A DNA stretch of 64,000 nucleotides. It comes from Mycobacterium sp. ITM-2016-00318. GTDB lineage: Bacteria; Actinomycetota; Actinomycetes; Mycobacteriales; Mycobacteriaceae. This document shows, one piece after another, positions 27,693-44,458 of the stretch. The stretch is from contig NZ_CP134400.1 in the NCBI RefSeq assembly GCF_002968285.2, positions 5,084,001 to 5,148,000 on the forward strand. The letters run 5' to 3'. Numbering within the stretch: position 1 is the stretch's first letter; every line of letters begins with the position of its first letter. A program made the position numbers and the translations under genes. The notes under the pieces are model-generated. The model saw only the letters and a list, made by a program, of their open reading frames with translations, did no database searches and was not told the origin of the DNA.

Positions 27693-27714
27693 TATCTTTG
27701 GTAACGTCCTCCGC

Positions 27715-29496: not shown

Positions 29497-29497
29497 C

Positions 29498-30121
29498 ATG
29501 GCAAGGACTCAACGGCAGCGCCGCGAGGACACCATCGCCCGGCTGCTCGACGCGAGCATCGAGACCATCATGGAGGTCGGGTACGCGCGGGCGTCGGCGA
29601 AGGTGATCGCTGCGCGCGCGCAGGTGTCCGACGGCGCGCTGTTCCGGTACTTCCCCACCATGGGCGACCTCATGGCGGCGACGGCACAGGAGGCGGGCCG
29701 CCGGCTGATCGACCTAGGCGTGAGCAAGGTGGCAGAGATTCCGGCCGCCGAGCCCTCGCTCGAGGAGGCGCTGACCATCCTTCGCGACGTCACCGCAGAC
29801 CCGACCAACACCGTGATCCACGAACTGGCCGTCGCCGCACGCACCGACGAGCTCTTGCGTGCCACCCTGCGCGATGTCATGGCCGTGTACACCGCGAAGA
29901 TCTACGAGATCGCGAAGATCACACTGTCCGATCAGATCGAGGCGTTCGGCGAAGACAATTTCCGGGTTCTGCTCGCCGTACTCCTCAACAGTTTCGACGG
30001 AGCGGCGATCTTCTCACATGTACTGACGCACGCGGCGATCGAGGAGCAGCGTATCCCGCTGCTGATGTCGATGATCGGCGTCGGCATGCGTGTTGATCAT
30101 GCACCTCTGATTCCCGGCTGA
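29498..30121 (+). CDS. TetR family transcriptional regulator
   Basis: A 207-aa regulator. The N-terminal HTH is complete: REDTIARLLDASIETIMEVG, YARASAKVIAARAQVSDGALFRYFPTMGDLMAA. The helical C-terminal domain is the ligand and dimer part. The ATG at 29498 is preferred over the in-frame GTG inside the amidohydrolase gene. Its coupling to the amidohydrolase, and the palindrome at 27681-27692 before that gene, suggest autoregulation of the pair and possibly of the divergent three-gene run. Confidence 0.87.
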   Translation: MARTQRQRREDTIARLLDASIETIMEVGYARASAKVIAARAQVSDGALFRYFPTMGDLMAATAQEAGRRLIDLGVSKVAEIPAAEPSLEEALTILRDVTADPTNTVIHELAVAARTDELLRATLRDVMAVYTAKIYEIAKITLSDQIEAFGEDNFRVLLAVLLNSFDGAAIFSHVLTHAAIEEQRIPLLMSMIGVGMRVDHAPLIPG

Positions 30122-30137
30122 AAGCATTCGCCATAGG

Positions 30138-32705: not shown

Positions 32706-32725
32706 GCAGGCGCCGCCCGACGCGT

Positions 32726-32935
32726 CTACTCGGTGCGCTCAGTGGCGCCTTCCCGGATAGCGCGGGCGTCACGATGGAGCGCTTCGGCCTGTTTGCGTAG
32801 CTGTGTAGCCCTACGGTGAGTCGCGTCAGCGGCGCTGTGGGCGCGATCTGCCGACTCGTAATCCAACTGCGCGTCCGCTATCGCGTCACTGGCTTTGTCG
32901 GCTGCGTCCGAAGCGGCATCCTCGGCCTTACCCAT
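32726..32935 (-). CDS. Small Ala-rich coiled-coil protein
   Basis: A 69-aa protein from ATG 32935, preceded by AAAGGGG. It is almost wholly helical (AEDAASDAADKASDAIADAQ, then heptad-like Ala, His and Arg) and highly charged, with no cysteine or membrane segment. Similar small helical proteins occur around mycobacterial stress genes. I do not recognise a named family. It is divergent from the two small genes that follow a SigF-type promoter. Confidence 0.6.
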   Translation of the reverse strand: MGKAEDAASDAADKASDAIADAQLDYESADRAHSAADATHRRATQLRKQAEALHRDARAIREGATERTE

Positions 32936-33030
32936 GCAGCACCCCTTTCGTGAGACACGTCCTATAGCCGCACACGAAGCGGTGTAATCACCTCCGCGCC
33001 CTCGATCCCGGCCGGAGGCATCGACGCTGC

Positions 33031-33056
33031 GTTTGACCGTCAACGGCGCGGGGTAT
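33031..33056 (+). promoter_or_regulatory. SigF-type promoter
   Basis: GTTT at 33031-33034, 16 bases, then GGGTAT at 33051-33056: a good match to the mycobacterial SigF consensus as I know it (GTTT, 15-17 bases, GGGTA). It lies 35 bp upstream of the GTG at 33091 and should drive the zinc-ribbon microprotein and the DUF2510 gene. Confidence 0.65.
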
Positions 33057-33090
33057 CTGTCGGGGGCTGGCTATTTGGGGAGGACCTGTA

Positions 33091-33207
33091 GTGGCTGACG
33101 GCATTTGTCCTGCGTGCGGCTATCCGACCATCGATTCCAGGACATGTGCCGCCTGTCTTCCGATAGCTGCCGCGGGTGCCGAGGCAACGCCGATCGCCAC
33201 CGTCTAG
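33091..33207 (+). CDS. 38-aa zinc-ribbon-like microprotein
   Basis: A short gene with a near-ideal ribosome site (GGGGAGG eight bases before GTG 33091) and stop TAG 33205-33207. The product starts MADGICPACGYPTIDSRTC and has two CxxC pairs (CPAC and CAAC) about 12 residues apart, a treble-clef or zinc-ribbon pattern, followed by an Ala-rich tail. It is preceded by a SigF-type promoter and followed 19 bp later by a small membrane gene with its own AGGGAGG. Function unknown; zinc binding is inferred. Confidence 0.65.
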   Translation: MADGICPACGYPTIDSRTCAACLPIAAAGAEATPIATV

Positions 33208-33226
33208 GACATCAGGGAGGCTCGAA

Positions 33227-33496
33227 ATGTCGAACATCGCTGGATCGCTGAACTCGCTGATTTGGCTTCTGATCGTCATCCTGATCATCGCCGTGGTCAT
33301 CTGGGCGGTGCGGATGGCCTTCGCCCCGCGCGGCGGGCGCACCTACCGCGAGCACACGGTGGTTCAACAACCCGCGCCGTCCCAGCCCGCACAGTCCGGA
33401 GGTCTTGCGCCAGGCTGGTATCCAGACCAGAACGATCACCGCATGATGCGGTATTACGACGGCAGGGTGTGGACATCCGAGACGCGCGGCGCTTAA
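33227..33496 (+). CDS. Small membrane protein with DUF2510 domain
   Basis: An 89-aa protein with one N-terminal membrane helix (residues ~10-32, LIWLLIVILIIAVVIWAV), a basic stop-transfer segment, and a C-terminal DUF2510 motif (PGWYPDQNDHRMMRYYDGRVWT). DUF2510 is a short Trp-rich module often found in actinobacterial membrane proteins. ATG 33227 has AGGGAGG upstream. Second gene of the SigF-promoter pair and the last chromosomal gene before the integrated element. Confidence 0.75.
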   Translation: MSNIAGSLNSLIWLLIVILIIAVVIWAVRMAFAPRGGRTYREHTVVQQPAPSQPAQSGGLAPGWYPDQNDHRMMRYYDGRVWTSETRGA

Positions 33497-33547
33497 ACGG
33501 AGCGCTCGTCACGCGCACCTGCAGCGTTGTAGAAACCGTGAAAGATT

Positions 33548-33590
33548 GCGCGCCCGAAGGGATTCGAACCCCCAACCTTCTGATCCGTAG
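33548..33590. repeat. attL: displaced 3' end of tRNA-Arg
   Basis: The 43 bases starting gcgcgcccgaagggattc are identical to 44385-44427. On the minus strand they encode the acceptor 3' strand, T arm, variable loop and part of the anticodon arm of tRNA-Arg; the rest of the tRNA is absent here. This is the fragment left when the element inserted. Confidence 0.9.
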
Positions 33591-33696
33591 GCAGGTCCAT
33601 TCCATCCCCAAGTGTCCGTAGCAGTCCGGAAACTCGGCCTCCCTGCGCAATCACATCCACGTGAGTCCGTTGCCGTCCCCCGGAGTTGTTTTGACT

Positions 33697-33714
33697 TGTG
33701 ACACTCTCGTGACA
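33697..33714. promoter_or_regulatory. Putative integrase arm-type site pair, left
   Basis: TGTGACA (33697-33703), five bases, GTGACA (33709-33714). A pair with the same two words and six-base spacing lies at 44295-44313 inside the end of the integrase gene. Paired sites on both sides of the core are expected for a tyrosine integrase attP. Confidence 0.4.
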
Positions 33715-33854
33715 ACGAGCGGCTGGCGCACTGAGCGCGTGTAGACCGCGCCGCGACCGGACCGCCAGCGAGCGCCTCGCGTTTGTGCGTGTTCACGCTC
33801 GCCGGCGAGACCGGTCAAGCGGTCACGCAGCGGTGGCAGGCAAGCGGGGCCCGT

Positions 33855-34205
33855 TTACGCGCAAGCGGGCGGTACACACGAGGGCGTGAATATCCGCACC
33901 GTCGGCCCAGGGGGTGCGACATTAGTTGCGATAAAGCCAGGTTCGAGCTTTGCGAAGTCACTGATGCCAAAGGGAAGGTCGGGAGTCCCCTTTCCCGGGG
34001 TAAATTGCCCCTCCACCCCGAAAATTTGTGCGATGTTTCCGGGCACACCACCTGGGCCGGGAGCATTGGTTGGGTCTGCAGCGGTGGTGCCTGGGTCTGC
34101 AGCGGTGGTGCCTGCGTCGTCTGTTGGCTCTGCCCAGGCCACTCCGGCGATTGGAACAGACACGGCAGCCGCTGCGGCCGCGGTGACGAACAGTTTCTTG
34201 AGCAT
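33855..34205 (-). CDS. Small secreted protein of the element
   Basis: A 116-aa protein from ATG 34205, preceded by GGAGAA. The signal peptide is clear: MLKKLFVTAAAAAAVSVPIA ending at AWAE, cleaved after Ala-Trp-Ala. The mature part begins with two tandem copies of a GTTAADP unit (encoded by the 21-bp DNA repeat at 34073-34114), then a Pro/Gly-rich stretch and two cysteines near the end (SCVPPAC). It resembles short exported mycobacterial proteins. As cargo beside attL it may alter the host surface, but no function can be read. Confidence 0.68.
   Translation of the reverse strand: MLKKLFVTAAAAAAVSVPIAGVAWAEPTDDAGTTAADPGTTAADPTNAPGPGGVPGNIAQIFGVEGQFTPGKGTPDLPFGISDFAKLEPGFIATNVAPPGPTVRIFTPSCVPPACA
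34073..34114. repeat. Tandem 21-bp duplication within the secreted protein gene
   Basis: Two perfect adjacent copies of ggtctgcagcggtggtgcct+g (34073-34093 and 34094-34114). The unit is a whole number of codons and encodes the repeated GTTAADP heptapeptide, so copy number can change without breaking the frame. Confidence 0.85.
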
Positions 34206-34433
34206 GTGCTTCTCCGATCGAATGACTGCGGGCCACGACGGCTCACGTGTCACCGATCCTCCGCCTGCCGAGGGAGCCGGCATTCAGTAATCGACTACTG
34301 CACCCGGCTAGCTGTGCGTGGACGAGAAGGACACGGGTGCTGGGAGGGGATGGGCCGGATTGGCTGGCGGTCCGGGCGTTACCCGGCGAACGGGGCGGGT
34401 CGATTGTCGGCGGTCCCGACTATCCTGCCGAAA

Positions 34434-34694
34434 ATGGAGGGCGATCTCGTCCGGCTCCGAGGCAAATGGGTGACTGAAGCACCCACCCGGTGCCCCAACG
34501 GGCACACCCTCGGCGCTAACCAAGTCCTTGTCGGTCACGTGGCCTGCCTCGGTCATGGCGGCGGCGGACACACCAGCTGGCATTGCCGAACCTGCGAATC
34601 GGTGGTCTACGGACCGCCGCTTAATGTCCATTGCACCTGCCTCGAAGGTCCAGCAGCGGTGCGAATTTCGAGCAAAACTAGCCCCTCCTCTTGA
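34434..34694 (+). CDS. Cysteine/histidine-rich putative zinc-binding protein
   Basis: An 86-aa protein from ATG 34434 with a pattern suggesting a zinc fold: RCPNGHTLG, HVACLGHGGGGHTSWHC, RTCESVVYGP and VHCTCLEG. The glycine-histidine stretch between cysteines and the PNGH motif are unusual. I have the impression that similar short proteins recur in mycobacterial genomes and prophages but cannot name the family. It is one of few plus-strand genes in the cargo segment; the ribosome site is weak. Confidence 0.6.
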   Translation: MEGDLVRLRGKWVTEAPTRCPNGHTLGANQVLVGHVACLGHGGGGHTSWHCRTCESVVYGPPLNVHCTCLEGPAAVRISSKTSPSS

Positions 34695-34842
34695 AGTGCC
34701 CCCAAGGGAGTGGTAATTAGATAGCTGGGGAGGAGGGCAGCGCGGGTGGTCGGCCGTTCGCGCATCCAAAGGTCTCGTCGGTTCTGCCCCGCGTGCCAGC
34801 GGGACCGCCCCTCTCGTCGTGTGGTCGCCCCTGGGGGTCTTC

Positions 34843-35160
34843 CTAGTCGCTTCGTTCGTTGGTTCCCGAGAATTTGTGCCGCGCTGCGTCCCCGGCCTCT
34901 GCGTCGGCATCTCGGCCGGCGCGGTGCCAAGCTGCCGCAGCTTCGTGATTCGCCGCGTCGCCGCCTTCGAGAGCGGCGGCCCTAGCGTCGTGTTTGCGGG
35001 CGGCTCTATCGTGCGCTGCTGCCGCGCTGTCGTACGCTTCCGCGTTGCGCTCGGCCGCTCGACGGACATCACCTTGCGTCGGGCGCTGTCCTGCGGCGAG
35101 CTGTTCGCGCCTACGGGCGATCTCTTCAACTCGCTTACGGCGGCGCGATGTTGAGTCCAT
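34843..35160 (-). CDS. Charged Ala-rich helical protein
   Basis: A 105-aa protein from ATG 35160. It is almost entirely helical with Ala/His/Arg/Glu heptads (RRAAERNAEAYDSAAAAHDR, then AARKHDARAAALEGGDAANHE). It has no cysteine, signal peptide or membrane segment. It resembles in style the small helical protein at 32726-32935 outside the element. Function unknown. A long overlapping minus-strand frame (34308-35129) covers the same DNA and is judged spurious because its composition is Arg/Thr/Pro-rich noise. Confidence 0.55.
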   Translation of the reverse strand: MDSTSRRRKRVEEIARRREQLAAGQRPTQGDVRRAAERNAEAYDSAAAAHDRAARKHDARAAALEGGDAANHEAAAAWHRAGRDADAEAGDAARHKFSGTNERSD

Positions 35161-35205
35161 GGTCACTTTGACGCTACGCGCGGGCACCACCAGGGCGTGA
35201 CGAGA

Positions 35206-35427
35206 CTAGCAACCCGGCGCGATCTTCACTCCGGGGGTGGCTTGGCGGGCCGAAGCCTCTTCCCGGCGTGAATTTCGCACCTCTTTCGATGCTCGCCGGA
35301 GCGCCTCACTTCTCGCGCAGACTTCGGCGGACGCCTGACAAAGCTCGCGCGATAGCTCCTTCACCGCTTGACTCAGTTCGAACATGGCCACGGACCGGTT
35401 ATCGAAGGAGCCGGGTCGCCCACTCAC
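35206..35427 (-). CDS. Small coiled-coil protein
   Basis: A 73-aa protein from a GTG at 35427; an ATG at residue 15 (MFELSQAVKELSREL) is an alternative start. The core is a single amphipathic helix with two cysteines (LCQASAEVC) and a basic C-terminal part (ASKEVRNSRREEA). Proteins with this pattern occur as cargo in mycobacterial integrated elements as far as I recall. It is 45 bp upstream of the helical protein gene in the same direction, so the two may form an operon. Confidence 0.5.
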   Translation of the reverse strand: MSGRPGSFDNRSVAMFELSQAVKELSRELCQASAEVCARSEALRRASKEVRNSRREEASARQATPGVKIAPGC

Positions 35428-35660
35428 GGCGGTAGATTAACCAGTTGCTCACCGGTTATCCATGCAGACCCGATGTATTTCGGTGTTTCGTGAATGACTT
35501 GCAAGGGCAGCGGATAATTCCAGTCCAGCGTGGTCATTGCGGCACCGAACGTCCACATTCGTCCCCTCGGGCGAGTCGGTCGCGACGCAACGCAGCGCAA
35601 ATATTTGTTGTGTTCGTCAATTTCTCCCCTGAGTCCGGTGACGGAGGGGACAGTGATGCC

Positions 35661-35960
35661 ATGAACACGATCATTCGTAGACGGCTGGCCGTGGCAAGCG
35701 GAGTCGCCGCGCTTTCCGTGTTGGCTTCGATCGGCGCCGTCCTGCCAACACTCCCCACCGCACCCGATACCCCGACGGGTACGCCGATGGCGGTCGCACC
35801 CACAACAGGCCCCACGGGGACGATCAGCACATCAGCCCCCCCACCGGAACCGGGGACGAACAGTCGCAAGCCGACGCAGACCCCGCCGGATTACGGGCAG
35901 ACCACCCATCCCCGTCCCACCCGGAAGCCGCCCCCGACCCCGCCTCCAGTACTCGGTTGA
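35661..35960 (+). CDS. Secreted Pro/Thr-rich protein
   Basis: A 99-aa protein from ATG 35661 (GGAGGGG about a dozen bases upstream). Residues 1-30 form a signal peptide or anchor (IIRRRLAVASGVAALSVLAS, then IGAVLPTLPTA); the rest is low-complexity Pro/Thr/Gly (TTGPTGTISTSAPPPEPG), as found in exported or O-mannosylated mycobacterial proteins. No fold can be assigned. A second exported cargo protein next to the terminase end of the element. Confidence 0.55.
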   Translation: MNTIIRRRLAVASGVAALSVLASIGAVLPTLPTAPDTPTGTPMAVAPTTGPTGTISTSAPPPEPGTNSRKPTQTPPDYGQTTHPRPTRKPPPTPPPVLG

Positions 35961-36403
35961 CAATCCGCGCAAAGCAGCAACTTCTGCAGGGCCGCCACGG
36001 GGTTCATCCCCTCTGTTAAGACGCTAGCGTCGCCCGCTGACCGCCGCCCCACTTGTCAGTAGCCCTTGCCGGATTCGGAGGCATTCGATGATTTGAGCGA
36101 CATTCGTCTGGCAAGCTCCCAGCAGTCAGAGCCGGAAGATTAGCGGCGTCCATTTCGTTCTCCGGTTCGTTTGACGGGCCGATGATGCCGGAGTCTTCGC
36201 GGCTGACTAGTTCGGTGATCACAGACTCACACGTGTTGGGGGGTGTGGGCCCGGGTTGCGCCTCGACCCCGGGCACGCAACCCGGGCCCACCATGGGACG
36301 CGCAGTAGCCAGCCGTGAACCAGCTCGCAGCGATCCCGTCCTTGTTCGCCGCCGAGCCAGGAAGGAACAAGCCATCCCGGCGACGAACGAAGTCTTTTGT
36401 TTG
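35961..36403. other. Non-coding interval between cargo and packaging genes
   Basis: About 440 bp without a credible gene, lying between the convergent 3' ends of the Pro/Thr-rich gene and the large terminase gene. The one strong structure is the hairpin at 36245-36291. It would be the natural place for a terminator, a packaging (pac/cos) site or both. Confidence 0.5.
36245..36291. terminator. Long perfect hairpin, probable bidirectional terminator
   Basis: The arms gtgggcccgggttgcg (36245-36260) and cgcaacccgggcccac (36276-36291) are perfect 16-bp complements around a 15-base loop. There is no T-run, which is common for mycobacterial terminators. It sits between two convergent genes. A role as packaging or DNA-recognition site for the element is a possible alternative. 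Confidence 0.6.
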
Positions 36404-37813
36404 TCATGCAAACGTCGCCTTCCCGCTTCCGCGGCGGCCTGCAACTTCTGCGCCGTAACGTGCCAACGTCGCCGCCACCAATGGAGCGACCACAACAGTG
36501 CCGTCTCGGCGGTCCCACCCGAACAAACCAGCCTCTTGTATCGGTCGTTTACGGGCACCCGCTGCCGCGTCATTAAGTTGCGGTTGATCGGCGTGCGAAA
36601 TCTGGCCTGTGACAACCGCGTCGAGGAAGCCACCTGCGGCGCGGCCCATCTGCCCGGCTGTCGTGGTTATCACTTTGCACTTCTGCGCCTCCAACGCGGG
36701 AATCAAACTCGCTGCCGGAGATGCGCCGTCAATGACGATCGGAACGCGGCGGCCTGCCCTCTCAACGAGCCACTGCAACGCCAACAGCGGATCCGCGACA
36801 TAGTCATTGCCGAGAAGCTCGACGTGCTGCCGGTCATCGTCCAACAGCCAGGCACCAGCCACCGACAACACCGACCTGTCGGGTGTTGCGTCCACCGCCA
36901 ACGCCGAAGGCTTACGGCTGCTTTCGGGACCGGACGCCGCCAACGACGCCCAGTGCTCCATGTCGAAAACCTGCTCCATCTGGTCAACCGGCCAGCAGTT
37001 CAACCGCTCCCGCTGAAATCCATCCGGAGATAGTTCACGACGTTCGCTTTCCATCGCTTCAAGCTCCACACGTCCAGGGTTGGCCGCGATCCACTGCGCA
37101 CGGTCATCGATGTCGGTGCCCGGTTGCGCTCCGTACTCAACCCACGCCAACGCGCTATCGGTGCCCGCATGCGCCGTTTGTCGCAGCCTCCCGAATACCT
37201 CCGCGTCAGTCGTCAACTGCGGCGCCGTTCCGAACAGCCACACTTGAGCATTCGGACGAGCGGACTGCGCAGGCTTCGCGGACTCCCACTGCTGATCTGT
37301 AATCAGCTGAGCCTCATCAGCGAGATAGCAGTCAATTGACCATCCACGCAACGTTGAACGCGTCCGGGCCGGGAAGAAAATGTGAGTGCCGTCCTTCAGC
37401 CAGATCTCTTCGCGACCGAGCGCGCGGCCCACTGACTTCACCCGCCGAGACAACTCGGTGTAGTTCTCGAAGAACGACAGCAGGTTGAGGAACAACTCAC
37501 GGCTGGTGGACTGGACGTGCGCCGAACAGATGATCACCCTTTCGCCGAACAACAGCGCGCCGGCCAAAGCCCGCACCGTGAGCACCAGCGATTTTCCGTT
37601 CTGGCGGCTTATGTTCGTACAGACGGTCTTCGCGGCCCACGAACCATCCGAGCGCACACCCAAACCGGCCTCGAGAAGGTCTATCTGCCACGCGTCCAGC
37701 TGCGTACCGTACGCAGCCGCCAAATCAACAACCAGTTCAGCGTCATTACGCTCAGCCAAGGGCGCCATTCGCAGTCTTGGCCGAGCGACGTTCGGCGAGT
37801 TGGTCAACGACAT
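36404..37813 (-). CDS. Phage terminase large subunit
   Basis: A 469-aa two-domain packaging motor. ATPase: SRQNGKSLVL (Walker A variant) at about residue 70, VIICSAHVQSTSRELF, the adenine-motif region and IDCYLADEAQLI (Walker B with catalytic Glu). Nuclease: ALAVDATPDRSVLS and PIVIDGASPAAS supply the metal-binding Asp residues, with GARKRPIQEAGLFGWDRRDG near the end. It is complete in length for the HK97-like/mycobacteriophage type. It overlaps the small upstream gene by 62 bp in another frame. In the absence of portal and capsid genes it would have to load DNA into a helper's procapsid. Confidence 0.9.
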   Translation of the reverse strand: MSLTNSPNVARPRLRMAPLAERNDAELVVDLAAAYGTQLDAWQIDLLEAGLGVRSDGSWAAKTVCTNISRQNGKSLVLTVRALAGALLFGERVIICSAHVQSTSRELFLNLLSFFENYTELSRRVKSVGRALGREEIWLKDGTHIFFPARTRSTLRGWSIDCYLADEAQLITDQQWESAKPAQSARPNAQVWLFGTAPQLTTDAEVFGRLRQTAHAGTDSALAWVEYGAQPGTDIDDRAQWIAANPGRVELEAMESERRELSPDGFQRERLNCWPVDQMEQVFDMEHWASLAASGPESSRKPSALAVDATPDRSVLSVAGAWLLDDDRQHVELLGNDYVADPLLALQWLVERAGRRVPIVIDGASPAASLIPALEAQKCKVITTTAGQMGRAAGGFLDAVVTGQISHADQPQLNDAAAGARKRPIQEAGLFGWDRRDGTVVVAPLVAATLARYGAEVAGRRGSGKATFA

Positions 37814-37964
37814 CCTTCACCCCCTCCCCAGACATCGACTCAATCTCTGAAAGGAGCAGCCGATACTCACGAGACAACGCAGGCAAATCACGCGCAGAAT
37901 CACAGCCCTCAATCGCCTCAGCGATACGGTCCCGTGTGTGTGTAAGCCGCTCCAAACGCTCCAT
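37752..37964 (-). CDS. Putative terminase small subunit-like protein
   Basis: A 70-aa protein, mainly helical: MERLERLTHTRDRIAEAIEG, then REYRLLLSEIESMSGEGV and KDVVDQLAERRSAK. A helix pair followed by a DQLAERR-type tail directly before the large terminase gene is the usual form of the short TerS-like proteins of actinophages. It lacks an obvious DNA-binding HTH, so recognition of the packaging site may involve another subunit. The call rests on position and pattern. Confidence 0.55.
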   Translation of the reverse strand: MERLERLTHTRDRIAEAIEGCDSARDLPALSREYRLLLSEIESMSGEGVKDVVDQLAERRSAKTANGALG

Positions 37965-38048
37965 CTGGGCTAATTCACCCCTCCTGTAGAGCGGAATGCC
38001 CAGGGGTAGCCGTGATGGATTGGAGGCGAGCCCCCGCCCCAGGGGGTG

Positions 38049-38351
38049 TCATGCTGTCCACTTCCTCGTGGTCATGAATGGTTCGATGGCAGGCTTGCGG
38101 TTGCGGTCTCCACATCCGCGCCTGGCATTGCACAGCCTGTGGCTGAGTCTCACATTGGATCGTTGATATGGGCTGCCGCCTTTGGACACAGGTACAAGCT
38201 CATCGATTTCCGGTGAGTCGGCCAGACCGTGAGGCAACGTGACATCGACCCACTTGCCGCACAGGTGGCAGGTGTCCTCTTCAGCCAAGACCTGGGCGCG
38301 GAGCTTGCGACGGCGGTGTCCGTTGCCGTACCTGTTGCATCGCTTCGCCAT
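38049..38351 (-). CDS. HNH endonuclease
   Basis: A 100-aa protein. CHLCGKWVD opens the zinc-stabilised ββα-metal core, PEIDELVPVSKGGSPYQRSN is the central HNH segment (the usual first His of DHIVP is replaced by Glu, IDELVP), and VRLSHRLCNARRGCG gives the Asn and last His. Basic N- and C-termini fit DNA binding. In many phages an HNH protein encoded beside terminase is required for genome packaging; its place next to TerS/TerL suggests this here rather than a homing role. Confidence 0.82.
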   Translation of the reverse strand: MAKRCNRYGNGHRRRKLRAQVLAEEDTCHLCGKWVDVTLPHGLADSPEIDELVPVSKGGSPYQRSNVRLSHRLCNARRGCGDRNRKPAIEPFMTTRKWTA

Positions 38352-38354
38352 CGC

Positions 38355-39092
38355 TTACCCGGCGAACGTGGCGCTGCTGCGTCGTGGGTCGAAGGGTTCG
38401 GTCATGTCGGGTTCGCGTGCCTGGCTTGCGGCGTGGGCTTCCTCAATCGTGAAGAACGCAAGCGTTCTGCCCGCTCGGATGTTGGCACGCCAATGACTCC
38501 ACAGCGTGCCGTCGTCGTCGGCGCGGCTGCTGACGTCCACCCATGGGTTACTGAAGGTTTCGCACGACCACCAGCCCGTCGCCCAGTGCGAACCAGGCGG
38601 AGTCAAAAAGCGATTGCGTAATTGGAATGCGTCTCGTAGCTCGCCAGCGTCTGATTCGGCGCAGGCCACCAAATGCGCTTCATCGTTGCGGCGGGCGCGG
38701 GTCAACTCAACGATTGTTTCCTCGAGCTGGGCGGCGCTGTGCAGCCGTTCGATGAGTTGGTCGGCGGTGACGCGCAGCTCGGAGTGCAGACGGTCACGGT
38801 CAGCAAGGATCGCGCTTAAAGCCCTCTGCCCGGCGATGCTTTCGGCTTCTCTGTGCTGTGTCAGGCGGTGCTGCTTTCCGACGTGCTCAGCGATTGCCCG
38901 GTCGATATTGTCCGCGGTGGCGTTGTCGGCGATGAGCAGTGCGGCCGCGTTGTGGGGTGGCGGTTCTGGCCGGTTGGCACGCAGCTCAGTTAGTCGCTTG
39001 ACCCAGTGGGATGCGTCTTCGGGCAGGTCGAGACCGAAGTGGTTGAGCGCATGCGCGGCGTCGAGGCATTCGAGTGCTGAGGTGGAGTACAT
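38355..39092 (-). CDS. Hypothetical protein of the element
   Basis: A 245-aa protein that I do not recognise. The N-terminal 150 residues are helical and rich in Ala, Leu, Arg (LDAAHALNHFGLDLPEDASH, later LHSELRVTADQLIERLHSA, a probable coiled coil). The C-terminal part has several Trp residues (GSHWATGWWSCETF, GTLWSHWRANI). The gene lies 2 bp after the preceding one and 3 bp before HNH, so it belongs to the early/packaging operon. A DNA-metabolism or helper-interaction role is possible but not supported by motif. Confidence 0.6.
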   Translation of the reverse strand: MYSTSALECLDAAHALNHFGLDLPEDASHWVKRLTELRANRPEPPPHNAAALLIADNATADNIDRAIAEHVGKQHRLTQHREAESIAGQRALSAILADRDRLHSELRVTADQLIERLHSAAQLEETIVELTRARRNDEAHLVACAESDAGELRDAFQLRNRFLTPPGSHWATGWWSCETFSNPWVDVSSRADDDGTLWSHWRANIRAGRTLAFFTIEEAHAASQAREPDMTEPFDPRRSSATFAG

Positions 39093-39094
39093 AG

Positions 39095-39337
39095 TTACCG
39101 CCTCCGTCCATGCCGTCTGAGTGCAGCCTCTGCTGATGCAGTACTGGCAAGGCCGTCCTCACCCGTCAGGTTCTGCTTGCGTTGGAATCGCGACAGTGCC
39201 TCTGCTGCTCGTTCCTTGCCCGACTTGTGCCCGGTACGTTCGGCCAGCTCACTGAATTGCTCGGATGACATGCCGGCCACCAGGGCGTCGAGCACATCGC
39301 CCAGCGATGCGCCCTCCACATTGGGTTGTTCGTTCAC
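39095..39337 (-). CDS. Small hypothetical protein of the element
   Basis: An 80-aa acidic-to-basic protein: MNEQPNVEGASLGDVLDALV, then SSEQFSELAERTGHKSGKER and a basic end (RRHGRRR). It is mainly helical, with no membrane segment. It overlaps the preceding HTH gene by 4 bp, which supports it as a real translated gene. No family recognised. Confidence 0.55.
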   Translation of the reverse strand: MNEQPNVEGASLGDVLDALVAGMSSEQFSELAERTGHKSGKERAAEALSRFQRKQNLTGEDGLASTASAEAALRRHGRRR

Positions 39338-39651
39338 TCGTTCTCCTGAGGTAGAGAGTCTTCCGGGACGAGCCAGCGACCGCCGACTTTGATGCCGCCG
39401 ATATTCGGTGCGATATCACGTACATGTCGGTCGCTGCACTGAAGGCGTTTGGCTGCTTCGGCTGTGTGCACATACTTAGTTTGATGTGTTGGCGCCGAAC
39501 TGGTTCCGACCGCGGAACGGCCCAGTTCAGCACGGATTTCCCCGATGGCTTGGTCGAATGCTGCGACCGGGCCGTGGCTGAGAACTACCGTTGGGCGAAC
39601 TGCCTCCAGGGCTGATTTCGCTGTGAGTAGAACGGTTCGTGTCAACATCAC
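39334..39651 (-). CDS. Helix-turn-helix (excisionase/MerR-like) protein
   Basis: A 105-aa protein whose C-terminal half is a short winged HTH: YVHTAEAAKRLQCSDRHVRD, then IGGIKVGGRWLVPEDSL. This AAKRLxxSxRxVRR..KxGxxWxVPxDxL pattern is typical of excisionases and small recombination directionality factors. The N-terminal half (AFDQAIGEIRAELGR) is helical and may serve dimerisation. It is the second HTH gene in the operon, so either this or the gene at 42214-42414 could be the true Xis. Confidence 0.7.
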   Translation of the reverse strand: MMLTRTVLLTAKSALEAVRPTVVLSHGPVAAFDQAIGEIRAELGRSAVGTSSAPTHQTKYVHTAEAAKRLQCSDRHVRDIAPNIGGIKVGGRWLVPEDSLPQENE

Positions 39652-39860
39652 AAGCGACCATTCGCCGCGTCATAGATGCGGTGAGAGAGCACTATGGCGG
39701 CCGCCCACGAGAAGCAACCTAAGCCCTCGATGTGAACCGAATCCCCCTCGAGGACAACAATTGGAACACCGCGGCAGTCAATACACGTTCGACTGGCGCT
39801 CCGTGTGCGTCTCTTCTCGCAGCGAATGCACGTGTGCCTGTTCTTGTTCTTTGTGCTCAT
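39648..39860 (-). CDS. Small zinc-ribbon-like protein
   Basis: A 70-aa protein with a CxxC-type pair of knuckles at the N-terminus (HTCIRCEKRRTRSASRTCID, then C): CIRC and CIDC separated by 11 residues. The second half is a short hydrophobic segment (CFSWAAAIVLSHRIYD). It overlaps both neighbours by 4 bp. Zinc binding is inferred; actinophage operons often carry such tiny zinc-finger proteins. Confidence 0.55.
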   Translation of the reverse strand: MSTKNKNRHTCIRCEKRRTRSASRTCIDCRGVPIVVLEGDSVHIEGLGCFSWAAAIVLSHRIYDAANGRL

Positions 39861-40102
39861 GCCGGTACCGCCGCGGTGCCGAAAACCTCTGTAAATAGCT
39901 CCGAAGCGTAGAAGCGGTGTTGCGTGCCTTCGCGGGCGAACGTAACGCGGCCAAGCGGATCCACTCGGAGGATTCTTTCCACCACGGGCAGGGATCGACC
40001 GTTTCGGCGGACAACTACGCGGTCGTCACTGCGTACCCGTCCATGTGAGGAGACGCTGTAACCCCACCATCCTGGAACTGGCCGCCACTCTTCGACGTTC
40101 AC
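39857..40102 (-). CDS. NUMOD4-like DNA-binding protein
   Basis: An 81-aa protein from a GTG at 40102 that overlaps the WhiB stop as GTGA. The segment EEWRPVPGWWGYSVSSHGRV followed by RS is a NUMOD4 motif, normally found at the N-terminus of HNH homing endonucleases (EIWKPIPGF-EGYYEVSNLGRVRS type). No HNH catalytic part follows; the C-terminal half is ERILRVDPLGRVTFA and FYASELFTEVFG, which is itself a typical NUMOD4 continuation (..LHRLVAEAF-like). A stand-alone DNA-binding remnant or regulator is likely. Confidence 0.6.
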   Translation of the reverse strand: MNVEEWRPVPGWWGYSVSSHGRVRSDDRVVVRRNGRSLPVVERILRVDPLGRVTFAREGTQHRFYASELFTEVFGTAAVPA

Positions 40103-40371
40103 GCTGCCCGCCTCTTTGGCGCGTGCTGTGTTCGTCCCGCGATGACACCAGGCGGGCGGTGCGACGGCTTCAACCCATCGACATAGGCGATGCAAGCTGA
40201 GAGGGCGGGACAGGTCTGACAGATTGCGACTGCACGCTCAACGGCCCAGGCCCGGTCTTCCGCGTCGTCCTGGTCGGCGTCGAACAGATCCCAGCGACCT
40301 ACACATCGAGCGCCGCGCAGATCCGGGAAGCCGGCCAACGCCGAGGCGACCCCCTCCCATGTGGCCGTCAT
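40099..40371 (-). CDS. WhiB family iron-sulfur transcription factor
   Basis: A 90-aa protein from the ATG at 40371, which overlaps the upstream ATPase stop. It has the four cluster cysteines in WhiB spacing: GARCVG, then CQTCPALSAC after an acidic segment, followed by the GVIAGRT turn (counterpart of GVWGG) and a basic tail. WhiB proteins bind a 4Fe-4S cluster and SigA to control transcription; mycobacteriophage-encoded members such as TM4 WhiB repress host whiB2 and cause superinfection exclusion. This copy could do the same for the element. Confidence 0.8.
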   Translation of the reverse strand: MTATWEGVASALAGFPDLRGARCVGRWDLFDADQDDAEDRAWAVERAVAICQTCPALSACIAYVDGLKPSHRPPGVIAGRTQHAPKRRAA

Positions 40372-41858
40372 GACGCCGCACCACCCAGCCGCCCGATCTG
40401 CTGAGCGACAACCTCTTGAGGGGCGAAGCACCGGCACTCCGCACACAATCCCGAGTTGTTGTCGGCGAGAAGCTGTTCACCGCACCGGCAGGAGAAGTCC
40501 TCTTGCTGACCTTCTCCTCGGGCCTTCGCAACCGCAGCGAGTACCCGGTCAGTTTGTCCAGGGGAATCCGGCGTGAGGCCGCCCGGAGGGGCTAGGGAGT
40601 GTTCGTGTGGTCCCTGCTCTCCTGTGAGTGGCACAACTGGCACAAGGGCCTGTTCATGCTGGTCGTGGCCTTGTGCCGCCTTATGCCATTCATCCGATTT
40701 GGCACAAGGTGGCATAGGGGGCTGACCAGCGTTTATGCCACCTTCACCGCTTGTGCCATCAGGGATACACCCCGATTGGTCGCGTTCTTGATCGGCTGGC
40801 AGCGACCATCGTGATACCGGGCCACCGGCCGCCTGCTTCTCGTACTCGACAACAACGCGCTGTTTTTTGCGGGCACGCTGCAAAGTGCGCTCAGAGAATC
40901 CGGCGGCCTTCGCCTTGGCCTTGATCTCGCCGGACAATTCACCTGGGTTGCTCTCGAGGTACATCCGCAGCCACGTCTCGGCGTCTGTACGGTCCTGCTC
41001 ATCGTCGCCATGCTCAGCGTCGTAGTTGTCCGAAACATGCTGCCCCGCGGTTTTTGTGGACTCGCCGACGTAGCGCAGGATGGGCACGGTGCCGTCGGTG
41101 TCGTCGGTCGGCGGGAACACCTGCACGGCGTCGATGCTGAACTTGGTGGCTGGCACATCGGTTCCGGTCACGTTGGCCTTATCAGGGCCGACCAGAAGGT
41201 GTCCGTCCTCGTCACGCTGAGCGAACAGCGTCATCCGGGCCTTCTGCCGTAGCGCCCCCGTAGCGCCGTACAAGTCCCGAACATTGCCGCTAGCAATGCG
41301 ATTGGTGTGGGTCAAGAGCAACACCGCGGCACCAGTGGATGTCGCGGTCTCCTTCCACGGGTGCAGAGCCCGCCGGGCTTGCTGGGGGTCACGGACCGAC
41401 AAGCCCGCAGACACGGTGTCGAGCCAGGCATCGACAACGATCAGTCCAGGCTTCGGGTCCGCCTCCTCGACGAGCCGCATGTGGAACGGGAACACCGGCG
41501 AGCCGGACCCGTCGTCGCTTTCGCACAGCACTGAGACCCTGTCCAGATCCGCTCCCGCGAGTTCAAGCCGCGGCAGGACGGCGGTTGACCAGTCATCCTC
41601 GGTCAACACCAACAGTGCATGCCCGGGCTCACGTTCTGGAATGCCGAAACCTGGCCACGCCTTGCCCGTTGTGTAGGCGCCTACCACCGCTACCCAGAGG
41701 AGACTTTTGCCGATACCTTCGCCACCGACGAGGACAGTCGGTGCTCCCCGCGGAATGCGTCGGTGTGCCAGATATTCAACGGGCGCGGCCGGCTTCAGCT
41801 CGGATGCCCCGCGCACCCGCATCACTTCGTCTTCTTGACCTTCTTGGGGTGTTGTCAC
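40368..41858 (-). CDS. AAA/RecA-like ATPase, RepA or DnaB-type replication protein
   Basis: A 496-aa protein from a GTG at 41858 that overlaps the preceding stop. The N-terminal half is a RecA-like core (AAA_25/RepA type): VLVGGEGIGKSLLWVAV (Walker A), HALLVLTEDDW, GLIVVDAWLDT (Walker B) and AVLLLTHTNR with the sensor polar residues. A helix-turn-helix-like segment (EIKAKAKAAGFSERTLQRAR) and a C-terminal zinc knuckle (CRCGEQL..CAEC) follow. Such proteins unwind the origin or load a helicase for phage and plasmid replication, so the element may replicate after excision. Confidence 0.8.
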   Translation of the reverse strand: MTTPQEGQEDEVMRVRGASELKPAAPVEYLAHRRIPRGAPTVLVGGEGIGKSLLWVAVVGAYTTGKAWPGFGIPEREPGHALLVLTEDDWSTAVLPRLELAGADLDRVSVLCESDDGSGSPVFPFHMRLVEEADPKPGLIVVDAWLDTVSAGLSVRDPQQARRALHPWKETATSTGAAVLLLTHTNRIASGNVRDLYGATGALRQKARMTLFAQRDEDGHLLVGPDKANVTGTDVPATKFSIDAVQVFPPTDDTDGTVPILRYVGESTKTAGQHVSDNYDAEHGDDEQDRTDAETWLRMYLESNPGELSGEIKAKAKAAGFSERTLQRARKKQRVVVEYEKQAAGGPVSRWSLPADQERDQSGCIPDGTSGEGGINAGQPPMPPCAKSDEWHKAAQGHDQHEQALVPVVPLTGEQGPHEHSLAPPGGLTPDSPGQTDRVLAAVAKARGEGQQEDFSCRCGEQLLADNNSGLCAECRCFAPQEVVAQQIGRLGGAAS

Positions 41859-42217
41859 GCTGCCCGCCCGTGGGAGTAGGAGAAGCACTCCGCAGCGAGT
41901 TGGTGATGCCCTTGACGCCACATCACTCGACACGCGTCGGTGTCGAACAAGCCGGGGACTCCTGCGGCGCGAAGGTGCATAGCAGCGGCGACGACAGCCT
42001 CGGCACTAACAGCCGTACGGTCGGCCCCGCAGCGGTGCTTATCGACGTCGGGGTCGCGGACGCAACCGCAGCTGCCGATAGGTGGCTGGCGGAGCTTCGC
42101 GGCGTGACGCAGGGATCGACTAGAATGGTGTTGCGACGTGGAGGTTGTGGAGGTAGCCCCGGACTTAGTGCCGGGGCACACTTCTATGGGGGGATTGGTG
42201 GGTGGCGCGGTCATCAC
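41855..42217 (-). CDS. Hypothetical protein of the element
   Basis: A 120-aa protein I do not recognise. The N-terminal half is low complexity (Pro, Ser, Thr). The C-terminal half contains CGCVRDPDVDKHRCG, an AVSAEAVVAAAMHLRAAG helix and CRVMWRQGHHQLAAECF. The last pattern resembles short phage proteins encoded next to replication ATPases that carry a helical repeat with Trp-Arg. Four-base overlaps on both sides support translation. Confidence 0.5.
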   Translation of the reverse strand: MMTAPPTNPPIEVCPGTKSGATSTTSTSQHHSSRSLRHAAKLRQPPIGSCGCVRDPDVDKHRCGADRTAVSAEAVVAAAMHLRAAGVPGLFDTDACRVMWRQGHHQLAAECFSYSHGRAA

Positions 42218-42414
42218 ACCGCCTGCTGATCGAGTCGGTTGATGAAATCGACGATCGCCTGCTCGGGGATTAGGCGCCGGCTACGGACCTGTACCGACCG
42301 CAGCTCTCCGGATCTGAGTAACGCGAAGATGGTGGAGCGGCCGACGCCGAGGCGATCCTGGGCCGACTTGATGTTATGGAGACGGTTTACCGCTTCCGCG
42401 AGCGCTTCTGTCAC
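42214..42414 (-). CDS. Excisionase-type helix-turn-helix protein
   Basis: A 66-aa protein from a GTG at 42414, with GGAGG seven bases upstream. NIKSAQDRLGVGRSTIFALL followed by RSGELRSVQVRSRRLIPEQ is a classic HTH_17/excisionase domain (recognition helix then a small wing ending in IP). It is the first gene of the minus-strand operon, divergent from the repressor, and is therefore the best candidate for the directionality factor of the integrase or for a Cro-like switch protein. Confidence 0.75.
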   Translation of the reverse strand: MTEALAEAVNRLHNIKSAQDRLGVGRSTIFALLRSGELRSVQVRSRRLIPEQAIVDFINRLDQQAV

Positions 42415-42531
42415 TGATGGACCTCCTGTGTAGTAGAGACACAACAATTGATTTCTTTGTGTCGCAGTGAAGTGTCTACCAGTTCTGGACGGGTCACACA
42501 AGTACGTGCTAGGGTGTGTCGCTGTGACACA
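42415..42531. promoter_or_regulatory. Divergent switch region with GACACA/TGTGTC operators
   Basis: The interval between the excisionase-type gene and the repressor contains two inverted repeats of one word: GACACAA (42438-42444) with TTGTGTC (42457-42463), and TGTGTC (42515-42520) with GACACA (42526-42531). The second overlaps the repressor GTG start (42524), so binding would block the repressor's own initiation region. This is the expected form of a lysogeny-type genetic switch. Confidence 0.6.
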
Positions 42532-43144
42532 GCATTGGAGTGAAGGTCTGCACCAGCGGATCGCCCGGGCCATCAGAGACGCCCGCCAAGGACGCATGTC
42601 GGCGCAGGAGCTTGCGGACGAAACACAGCAGCTCGGCTACCCCATCACCCGCTCGCAGATCGCCAATTACGAGTCCGGCCGTAAACAAACCCTCGATGTC
42701 GCTGAACTGCTTGTGATCGCCGCGGCTCTTGAGGTGCCGCCGGTGACGCTCCTGTTCGGCGGCCCACCTGATGAAGAGGTGGAAATGCTGCCGGGCTGGA
42801 CAGGTCCGGCGTTCTTCGGGATCGCGTGGTTCAGCGGTGATCGCGAACTCGCCTGGCCCGGACCGGAAGTCATCGACCCCGATGAAGCACGCGCCATGGT
42901 CGACCAGGTGATCGCTAACCTCCATACGGCTGCGGCGAGGCTGTTGTGGCTAACGCGTAAACGTGCGGCCGTGCACAGCGCCCTCGTTGAATCACGTGTC
43001 GTGTCGAAGATGAACGCGAAGGCATGGAGCGACGACCAATTCGATGCAATGGTGCGCCGCGATGCCCGGTTGATCGAAGAGATTGACGAGATTAGCGATG
43101 AGATCGCGAAGGCTGTCGCCGAAAGCGAGGGGCAGACAGAATGA
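42524..43144 (+). CDS. HTH (XRE-type) repressor of the element
   Basis: A 206-aa protein from GTG 42524. The N-terminal Cro/C1-type HTH reads QRIARAIRDARQGRMSAQELADETQQL, then YPITRSQIANYESGRKQTLD. The middle and C-terminal part is a helical region (IANLHTAAARLLWLTRKRAAV) with no LexA-type Ser/Lys protease motif, so induction by RecA cleavage is unlikely; an antirepressor or helper protein would be needed. The stop overlaps the integrase start as ATGA, so the two are co-expressed. Confidence 0.8.
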   Translation: MTQHWSEGLHQRIARAIRDARQGRMSAQELADETQQLGYPITRSQIANYESGRKQTLDVAELLVIAAALEVPPVTLLFGGPPDEEVEMLPGWTGPAFFGIAWFSGDRELAWPGPEVIDPDEARAMVDQVIANLHTAAARLLWLTRKRAAVHSALVESRVVSKMNAKAWSDDQFDAMVRRDARLIEEIDEISDEIAKAVAESEGQTE

Positions 43145-44427
43145 CCCGCCAGCAGTTACCGCCGCAAATCAAGAAGATCACGTTGGCGGACAAGTCGATT
43201 CGATACCAGCTGATCACCGACGTGGGCGCCGATCCTGACACCGGAAAACGGCGGCAGGTCCGGAGGCGCTTCGAGAGATTGGAGGACGCCAAGAACGCCC
43301 TGACCGAGATCTCGGGGAAGGTCGCGCGTAACGATTTCGTGCCCCGTCGAGCCTTCACTGTGGAGGACTTGTGCGCCGACTGGCTCACCAGCCTCCACGG
43401 ATTACGCGCCACCACCATCGCAGGCTACGAATACGACCTTGCCCCCCTGCGAGAGATCCATGGCGCACTACCGGCGCAGCGACTCACCCGGCGGCACATT
43501 GACGACCTCGTTACCGACCTGAGTGCCGGAGGCACGAAAACTGCGAAGGGGCACGTCCGCAAACCGTGGGCGGCGAGATCACTGAACCGCACGATCGACA
43601 CCGCCGCAATGGTTCTCGAGTACGGCGTCGAGCGGCGCCTCATCGGCTCGAACGTGGCCGAGAAGGTCAAGCGGCTCTCGAAACCACGGAAGGAGATGAG
43701 CACCTACATACCGGACGAGGTGGCCAAGGTGCTCAAGGCAGCCGACGCGGACCGGGACGGGCATTTGTGGTACTTGGCGCTCAGCGGTTTGCGCCGGGGT
43801 GAGATCGCCGGGTTGCGGTGGTCCGACATCGACCAGTCAGAGAAGACGCTGACGATTCGGATATCTCGGGTAGCGGCCGCGGGAAAGGCGGTGGAGAACG
43901 CCCCGAAGACGAACGCATCTTCCCGCATCCTGCCCCTGGACGACGGTCTGGCGGCGGTCCTGCGAGCAGCCCGCAGACGGCAGGCTGAAGAACGTCTGGC
44001 TCTGGGCGCTGCATACGGCGTCGGCGACTACGTGGCGTGCGACGAGGCTGGACGGCCGTACCATCCGGACACCCTGAGCAAGAGGTGGTCCAATCTCATT
44101 CACGGTGCAGGCATCCGGCACATCAATTTGCATTCGGCTCGGCACACCTGCGGCACGACTTTGCACCTACGTGGCGTTCCGTTGTCCGTCGTCGCGGCGT
44201 GGCTAGGTCACGCCGACGCGAGCGTGACAGCGCGGATCTATGCGCACTCCCAGCCCGACGCATTGAAGGCCGCTTCGGTGACATTGGGAGCAGTTGTGAC
44301 AAGCACCGTGACACCAATCGGAACGGCGGCTGAAACGAATTGGGCTCCGACCACTTGCAGTGCTGCTCAGAGCCTTTCCACTGGGCGCGCCCGAAGGGAT
44401 TCGAACCCCCAACCTTCTGATCCGTAG
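43141..44427 (+). CDS. Tyrosine integrase
   Basis: A 428-aa site-specific recombinase. The N-terminal arm-binding part (residues 1-65) is followed by a SAM-like core-binding domain (TVEDLCADWLTSLHGLRATT) and the catalytic domain with Arg in ALSGLRRGEIAGLRW (~213), HSARHTCGTTLHLRG (~330, His-x-x-Arg), GHADASVTARIYAHS (~356 His and ~366 Tyr nucleophile). The last 14 residues (GRARRDSNPQPSDP) and the stop are encoded by the att core itself, that is, by the antisense of the tRNA-Arg 3' end, so the gene ends at the recombination site. Confidence 0.92.
   Translation: MTRQQLPPQIKKITLADKSIRYQLITDVGADPDTGKRRQVRRRFERLEDAKNALTEISGKVARNDFVPRRAFTVEDLCADWLTSLHGLRATTIAGYEYDLAPLREIHGALPAQRLTRRHIDDLVTDLSAGGTKTAKGHVRKPWAARSLNRTIDTAAMVLEYGVERRLIGSNVAEKVKRLSKPRKEMSTYIPDEVAKVLKAADADRDGHLWYLALSGLRRGEIAGLRWSDIDQSEKTLTIRISRVAAAGKAVENAPKTNASSRILPLDDGLAAVLRAARRRQAEERLALGAAYGVGDYVACDEAGRPYHPDTLSKRWSNLIHGAGIRHINLHSARHTCGTTLHLRGVPLSVVAAWLGHADASVTARIYAHSQPDALKAASVTLGAVVTSTVTPIGTAAETNWAPTTCSAAQSLSTGRARRDSNPQPSDP
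44295..44313. promoter_or_regulatory. Putative integrase arm-type site pair, right
   Basis: TGTGACA (44295-44301), six bases, GTGACA (44308-44313), about 70 bp from the core inside the integrase coding sequence. It matches the pair at 33697-33714 on the other side of attP. Confidence 0.4.
44385..44427. repeat. attR: core within intact tRNA-Arg
   Basis: Identical over 43 bases to 33548-33590. This copy, brought by the element, completes the tRNA-Arg gene and also encodes the integrase C-terminus on the opposite strand. Confidence 0.9.
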
Positions 44428-44458
44428 TCAGATGCTCTATCCGTTGAGCTACGGGCGC
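44386..44458 (-). tRNA. tRNA-Arg(ACG)
   Basis: On the minus strand it starts GCGCCCGTAGCTCAACGG and ends with the matching CGGGCGC and discriminator G. The anticodon loop is CTACGGA (ACG), T loop GGTTCGAATCC. CCA is not encoded. It is the integration site of the element and the expected substrate of TadA (A34 to inosine). Confidence 0.95.

Follow-up and report, generated by a model that had tools for sequence, protein, structure and literature searches.

A candidate phage satellite in Mycobacterium with its own terminase and no virion genes

Phage satellites described in the literature that we examined either use the packaging motor of a helper phage or bring motor and capsid together. Phage-inducible chromosomal islands (PICIs; SaPIs and their kin) are described as working with the motor of the helper by means of cos sites, a small terminase subunit (TerS) or a redirecting protein (PMC10690885). 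The capsid-forming PICIs (cf-PICIs), with which the mycobacterial PICI-like elements phiRv1 and phiRv2 are grouped, encode a portal, a protease, a capsid and connectors as well as an HNH endonuclease, TerS and the large terminase subunit (TerL). MulchRoom and MiniFlayer, satellites of Streptomyces phages, are likewise actinobacterial and have a terminase of their own; portal and capsid genes are present in them, and no primase can be recognised (PMC10690885). Here, we describe an integrated element of about 10.84 kb in Mycobacterium sp. ITM-2016-00318, contained in a stretch of 64,000 nt (hereafter, the window; GCF_002968285.2, NZ_CP134400.1, positions 5,084,001-5,148,000, forward strand). It resembles the PICIs in size, att site, integrase, repressor, Xis, replication protein and packaging genes but differs from them in having TerS, a full TerL and HNH, yet no portal; with cf-PICIs it shares HNH, TerS and TerL, whereas their virion genes are missing from it and its TerL is distant from theirs; and it is unlike MulchRoom and MiniFlayer both in the absence of portal and capsid genes and in the replication gene. 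We give a probability of about 0.63 to the reading that the element is a complete integrated satellite of a terminase-only class, which brings its own motor and uses the procapsid and tail of a helper.

A 43-bp perfect repeat enclosing some 10.9 kb, noted in a preliminary description of this DNA, was recovered as a direct repeat of 47 nt with one mismatch, identical over the first 43 nt, the two copies (attL, 33548..33594; attR, 44385..44431) lying 10,837 nt apart. The integration site is a tRNA-Arg(acg) gene (44384..44458, minus strand; ARAGORN and Rfam), which contains attR and remains whole, and attL is a duplicate of its 3′ part. With the tRNA end as the query, close matches in the host genome were found only at both att copies, with one further stretch at 79%. 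In five related genomes tRNA-Arg(acg) adjoins hisC, and over at least 4.6 kb on the other side of the tRNA no other element sequence was detected by blastn. A tyrosine integrase of 428 aa, the 3′ end of whose gene falls within attR, is encoded at 43141..44427 on the plus strand (PF00589, 7.9e-23; phrog_1, 6.2e-61; Arm-DNA-bind_4, 3.5e-6). The element is integrated, bounded by att sites, equipped with an integrase and devoid of a complete virion gene set, all general traits of satellites. The integrase and XRE repressor genes are read rightward and those from the Xis-like gene through TerL leftward. In PICIs, too, int and the repressor gene run one way and xis, the replication and the packaging genes the opposite way. 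Reliance on the large terminase of the helper, a further trait of PICIs, is not seen, the element having a full-length TerL that it would presumably use itself.

Portal, protease, capsid and tail genes had been reported as absent, and neither the Pfam and phrog family searches nor an iterated portal search contradicted this. The sole virion-type matches in the element scored no better than chance (tape measure, 0.021, at 35206-35427; major head, 0.079, at 33855-34283). The portal search was seeded with ten phage portals and recovered the portal family in 175 loci, but in none of 25 entries, made up of the window, two overlapping pieces and 22 satellite rows that represent 16 distinct loci. When a locus was scored as positive for a portal match or for a long gene on the same strand no more than 1 kb from TerL, 212 of 240 other TerL loci were positive (the portal family itself being detected in 137), a count that leaves out 86 loci with less than 2 kb after TerL. 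Among the satellite rows, none of the 22 had a portal match and four had a long gene after TerL (L039 and its copy L110, with a weak DUF4143 match; L108, with no family; and L147, a tape-measure gene; L numbers designate loci). The search is an independent check on a satellite set picked by eye from our own gene calls, and the satellite side of the count is therefore partly so by construction. The 28 other loci with neither signal, not all of which were inspected, include L170 (Gordonia phage Keelan), whose record has a portal; the test thus misses some.

The last phage genes of the element are those for packaging. The HNH endonuclease (38049..38351, minus strand; phrog_338, 6.6e-23) is 63% identical to that of L031, and the 70-aa TerS (37752..37964, minus strand), which has only a weak family match (phrog_1459, 0.0018), is 56% identical to its L031 counterpart and can be aligned with phage TerS proteins, including the annotated one of phage Shandong1. 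The 469-aa TerL (36404..37813, minus strand; phrog_9, 3.8e-60) has the RQxGK, DEA and acidic positions that are invariant in the alignment, motifs that we take in their customary meaning; no solved structure was related to it by sequence at 0.01. The TerLs of Weiservirinae phages (Shandong1, Biglebops and TiniBug), among the nearest from isolated phages, are about 36-39% identical to it, and these are full phages of 56-61 kb with a portal after TerL. By analogy, a cos site may lie between HNH and TerS, where a gap with G/C runs (37965..38048) is a candidate by position. A cos sequence shared among the satellites was also considered, and rejected as none was found.

A prophage in decay, or a deletion derivative that chanced to keep its packaging genes, could have the same content, and small prophage-like elements were interpreted in this way in 2014 (PMC3986857). 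The surroundings of related TerL genes bear on this directly. Sixteen loci besides the window have a related TerL with no portal after it, 14 in bacterial genomes and two in viral contigs, mostly from mycobacteria, with Kytococcus in addition. In a sample of the genus, TerL matched at 1e-10 in 37 of 297 genomes (its own included); wider surroundings were covered for 20 loci beyond the window, eight of which (L031-L035, L038, L039 and L041) have no portal after TerL, while L049, which stops a short way past TerL, was left unclassified. A further set of named genomes gave 14 TerL loci, ten without a portal after TerL; six of the ten are the same sequences as genus loci (Mycobacterium sp. E787, M. 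xanthum, M. elephantis, Mycolicibacter sp. MYC340 and two Mycobacterium sp.) and four are new (Mycolicibacter senuensis, M. chlorophenolicum, M. gordonae and Kytococcus aerolatus), the remaining four loci (L107, L113, L114 and L115) having a portal gene. An order-wide draw, with matches at 1e-30 in 50 of 397 genomes and 20 loci examined, added L146 and L147 (L160, being unclear, was left out of the count), and viral contigs, of which 24 gene lists were read, added L225 and the partial TerL of L302. In the search for relatives continuing into portal, capsid or tail genes, to which the preliminary description had tied the deletion explanation, the near ones with visible context (L031 and the partial L302, both with a TerL 63% identical) do not continue into portal or capsid; more distant TerLs in phages and prophages, at about 47% identity and below, do continue into a portal, as expected of phage-derived genes, and this is a point in favour of deletion.

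Three of the 16 loci have exact repeats at both ends and lie at tRNA genes other than that of the window: L109 (29 nt, tRNA-Arg(tct), 9.5 kb), L108 (45 nt, tRNA-Pro(ggg), 10.3 kb) and L112 (27 nt, tRNA-Leu(gag), 10.8 kb). All three have an integrase gene close to one of their ends (phrog_1, 1.6e-56 or better) and TerS-TerL inside; in five other satellite loci no convincing att repeat was found. Counting that of the window, four complete elements similar in size lie at four tRNA genes, which random loss would not be expected to produce. The integrases of L031, L034 and L038 are of the serine type (phrog_95). L034, L038 and L041, from different species, adjoin the same gene, two of them with serine-type integrases and the third unclear; the common neighbour, which we take to be uvrA-like, suggests a shared target.

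TerL is kept by purifying selection. Seven pairs drawn from L033, L035, L104, L038, L041, L108 and L112, all of lineage II, a 12-row clade of a 53-row TerL tree, gave dN/dS of 0.09-0.16; the value between the window and L031 was 0.22, with dS, at 1.6, near saturation. The reading frames of the window element are open and its TerL aligns end to end, in keeping with the earlier remark that unbroken genes are unlike random decay. Two clades of satellite TerLs are fully supported in the 53-row tree (100/100 each), one of these 12 and one of the window with L031; joining all 15 satellite TerLs, as a single origin would require, was not rejected in this first tree (p-AU, 0.094). When viral contigs were added, well supported branches forced three changes of the TerL-only label, and a repeated derivation of this layout from phage terminases is thus probable, a point on the side of deletion. 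A simple prophage deletion is nonetheless disfavoured for the class by the 16 loci, the selection on TerL and the three att-closed relatives, and we regard it as unlikely. The att anatomy, the gene content with HNH, TerS and TerL as the last phage genes and no virion genes, the same ending at other sites and the selection on TerL all support the satellite reading, as do the two TerL clades, the alignment of TerS with its phage counterparts and the candidate anti-phage cargo of relatives.

The front end of the element occurs in other combinations. RepA relatives were found in 44 of 297 genomes, and several layouts were seen among the 20 such loci examined together with L034: a capsid gene without terminase in L098 (phrog_10, 2.1e-32) and, by look, in L084 and L085; TerL, portal and capsid in L081, L092 and L099 (portals of phrog_104); terminase only in L034; and neither in some others. 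L081, with a front end homologous to that of the window (integrase 50%, Xis 59% and RepA 53% identical), bears portal and capsid, as a deletion derivative would lead one to expect, but its TerL is only 25% identical to that of the window over 249 aa, both belonging to the broad phrog_9. A shared front end with a distant TerL fits a module swap better than truncation. The RepA of L092 is 52% identical to that of the window, and integrase and RepA of L099 are 26-30% identical.

A second element (L211), at about 2.687-2.699 Mb of the same chromosome, encodes an integrase, a RepA-like protein, TerL, a portal (phrog_104, 6.9e-112; 71% identical to the L081 portal) and a major head protein (phrog_10, 2.5e-44), and is, to judge by its genes, a capsid-bearing satellite-like element. 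Its portal and major head genes would in principle allow it to supply procapsids, which would make the window element a satellite of a satellite. Yet its TerL did not match that of the window by blastp at 1e-2, and the two elements were seen together in this one genome; we consider such a dependence very improbable. The RepA-like proteins likewise had no match at 1e-2, and the integrases are 24% identical.

Between TerL and attL lies a stretch of small open reading frames (ORFs; 33595..36403, with ORFs at 34843-35190, 35206-35427 and about 33855-34205 on the minus strand and 35661-35960 on the plus strand), two of which have, by eye, signal-peptide-like starts. None had a convincing family match (two were also scanned for defence candidates). 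The stretch is a candidate cargo slot; in PICIs an accessory slot likewise follows the packaging gene (PMC13376191), and the same slot carries cargo in relatives. A PADLOC scan of eight post-TerL proteins from seven loci gave strong anti-phage candidates in three of the seven, each directly after TerL: TIR (PDC-S35; L041:10992-11849), DUF5131 (PDC-M41B; L112:11760-12500) and, less strongly, DUF2971 (PDC-S31, 5.7e-9; L031:10699-11634). Weak candidates were found in L104 (NYN), L033 (oxygenase) and L039, and two of the eight proteins gave none. These genes, the lack of capsid genes and the known interference of satellites with their helpers (PMC11389934) could mean that the terminase serves interference, cutting or mispackaging helper DNA or competing for portals, in an element that spreads mainly vertically or by ordinary transduction. 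We find this improbable, since TerS, TerL and HNH in phage order, together with Int/Xis and replication genes, would fit self-packaging better.

Five relatives carry one tail gene. In L033 (12810-14597), L104 (7273-9045) and L035 (11631-13406) a minor tail protein gene (phrog_110, 4.3e-180 or better) lies ahead of the packaging genes, and in L146 (4730-8419) and L147 (7663-8892 and 3992-6295), from another family of the order, a tape-measure gene lies beside TerL, that of L147 being split by a transposase-like insertion. For the class as a whole, we see about even odds that these are motor-only satellites of Actinomycetota, of more than one origin, which would place a whole terminase on a foreign portal, some adding a minor tail or tape-measure gene to alter or match the tail of the helper.

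Beyond its gene content, the following course can be proposed for the window element as a satellite. Infection by, or induction of, a helper phage would relieve the repressor; Int and Xis would excise the element and RepA would start its replication. Its own TerS-TerL and HNH would then cut the concatemer, the likely point being a cos site in the HNH-TerS gap, and the TerS-TerL complex would dock on the helper portal and fill helper procapsids, which would receive helper tails.

Several observations weigh against the satellite reading. The HNH reads D-E, as does that of its nearest relative, L031, and lacks the usual His of the D-H found in seven of nine aligned HNHs. The candidate cos gap has no word longer than 10 nt common to three satellite groups and no conserved cos motif. 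RepA, at 484-521 aa against 709 aa in the top-scoring homologue, lacks the N-terminal part. No supported branch joins L032 and L225 to the window and L031, and the TerLs of the latter two do not group in trees with those of the nearest isolated phages, which among the matches listed are about 36-39% identical. A protein database covering both genomes and metagenomes contains dozens of TerLs that are 56-79% identical (120 of 263 matches listed), but most come from metagenomes and have no visible surroundings; in viral-contig scans aimed at the lineage of the window TerL, only L302 exceeded 50% among the matches listed. This distribution is consistent with, though no proof of, a lineage that lives outside recognised phage genomes; by megablast, the whole element had no match among 50,697 phage records. 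Finally, no PF04860 portal was found in the host genome; however, the second element has a portal that PF04860 likewise fails to detect, and the negative says little either way.

Family searches upheld all the remaining assignments of the preliminary description, from the integrase and repressor to a full-length TerL. The XRE-type repressor (42467..43144, plus strand, start possibly at 42596; HTH_3, 2.3e-6) is followed, on the minus strand, by the Xis-like HTH_17 protein (42214..42414, in an ORF opening at 42597; PF12728, 1.2e-6; 59% to L081), a small protein with no assigned role (41855..42217; 39% over 85 aa to the stretch preceding RepA in L082), the RepA-like AAA ATPase (40368..41933, start possibly at 41822; PF13481, AAA_25, 4.6e-19; phrog_10729, 1.1e-19), a WhiB-like regulator (40099..40446; phrog_9926, 5.9e-7, under the Pfam cut-off; homologues in L033, L034, L035, L038 and L041), a NUMOD4/HNH-type protein (39857..40195; PF07463, 2.3e-8; phrog_1492, 8.7e-14) and an HTH protein (39334..39651; HTH_17, 0.0012, below the cut-off; 46% to the L032 protein in the same place). 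The genes had been called tightly overlapping, which holds with small gaps for about 36.4-42.4 kb but not for the 2.8 kb between TerL and attL, with its small, low-confidence ORFs. Just before the packaging genes, a helical protein of 245 aa with no assigned role (38355..39092, minus strand; 51% to L032) had no match among the 50,697 phage records and six relatives besides itself in 5.8 billion proteins, and has been seen so far solely in such elements. Its model is all-helical (pLDDT, 83.8), with no PDB or viral-structure match at E ≤ 0.001; identity to proteins in the same place in eight other elements is just 12-17%, which makes any wider homology a guess.

About 6 kb to the left of attL (27700-33547) encode, by look, an amidohydrolase-like protein, a regulator and a penicillin-binding protein. 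This flank was not found beside tRNA-Arg(acg) in the five related genomes, three of which have homologues of the genes at 26.3-27.7 kb beside the tRNA; we regard it as unexplained chromosomal variation.

A 2023 survey of Mycobacterium (Abad et al.) defined a candidate PICI by integration machinery and a major capsid gene (PMC10654092); an element with no capsid gene falls outside that definition. phiMAV_2 of M. avium 104 (Fan et al., 2014; PMC3986857), a 16.5-kb element presented together with defective prophage-like ones, is described as extending from integrase to terminase between short repeats and having a primase/polymerase, no capsid gene being named; compared by description, it may belong to the terminase-only class. 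In our literature searches, none of the titles and abstracts listed described a satellite with its own TerL but no capsid, though an earlier mention is possible. If the satellite reading is true, selection is able to break or broaden the matching of terminase and portal, and these elements would be a natural system for asking what determines the portals that a terminase will accept. Surveys requiring a capsid gene miss them, and mycobacterial satellites, some with candidate defence genes, are thus probably undercounted. Our analysis suggests that terminase-only satellites are a little-noticed kind of phage parasite.

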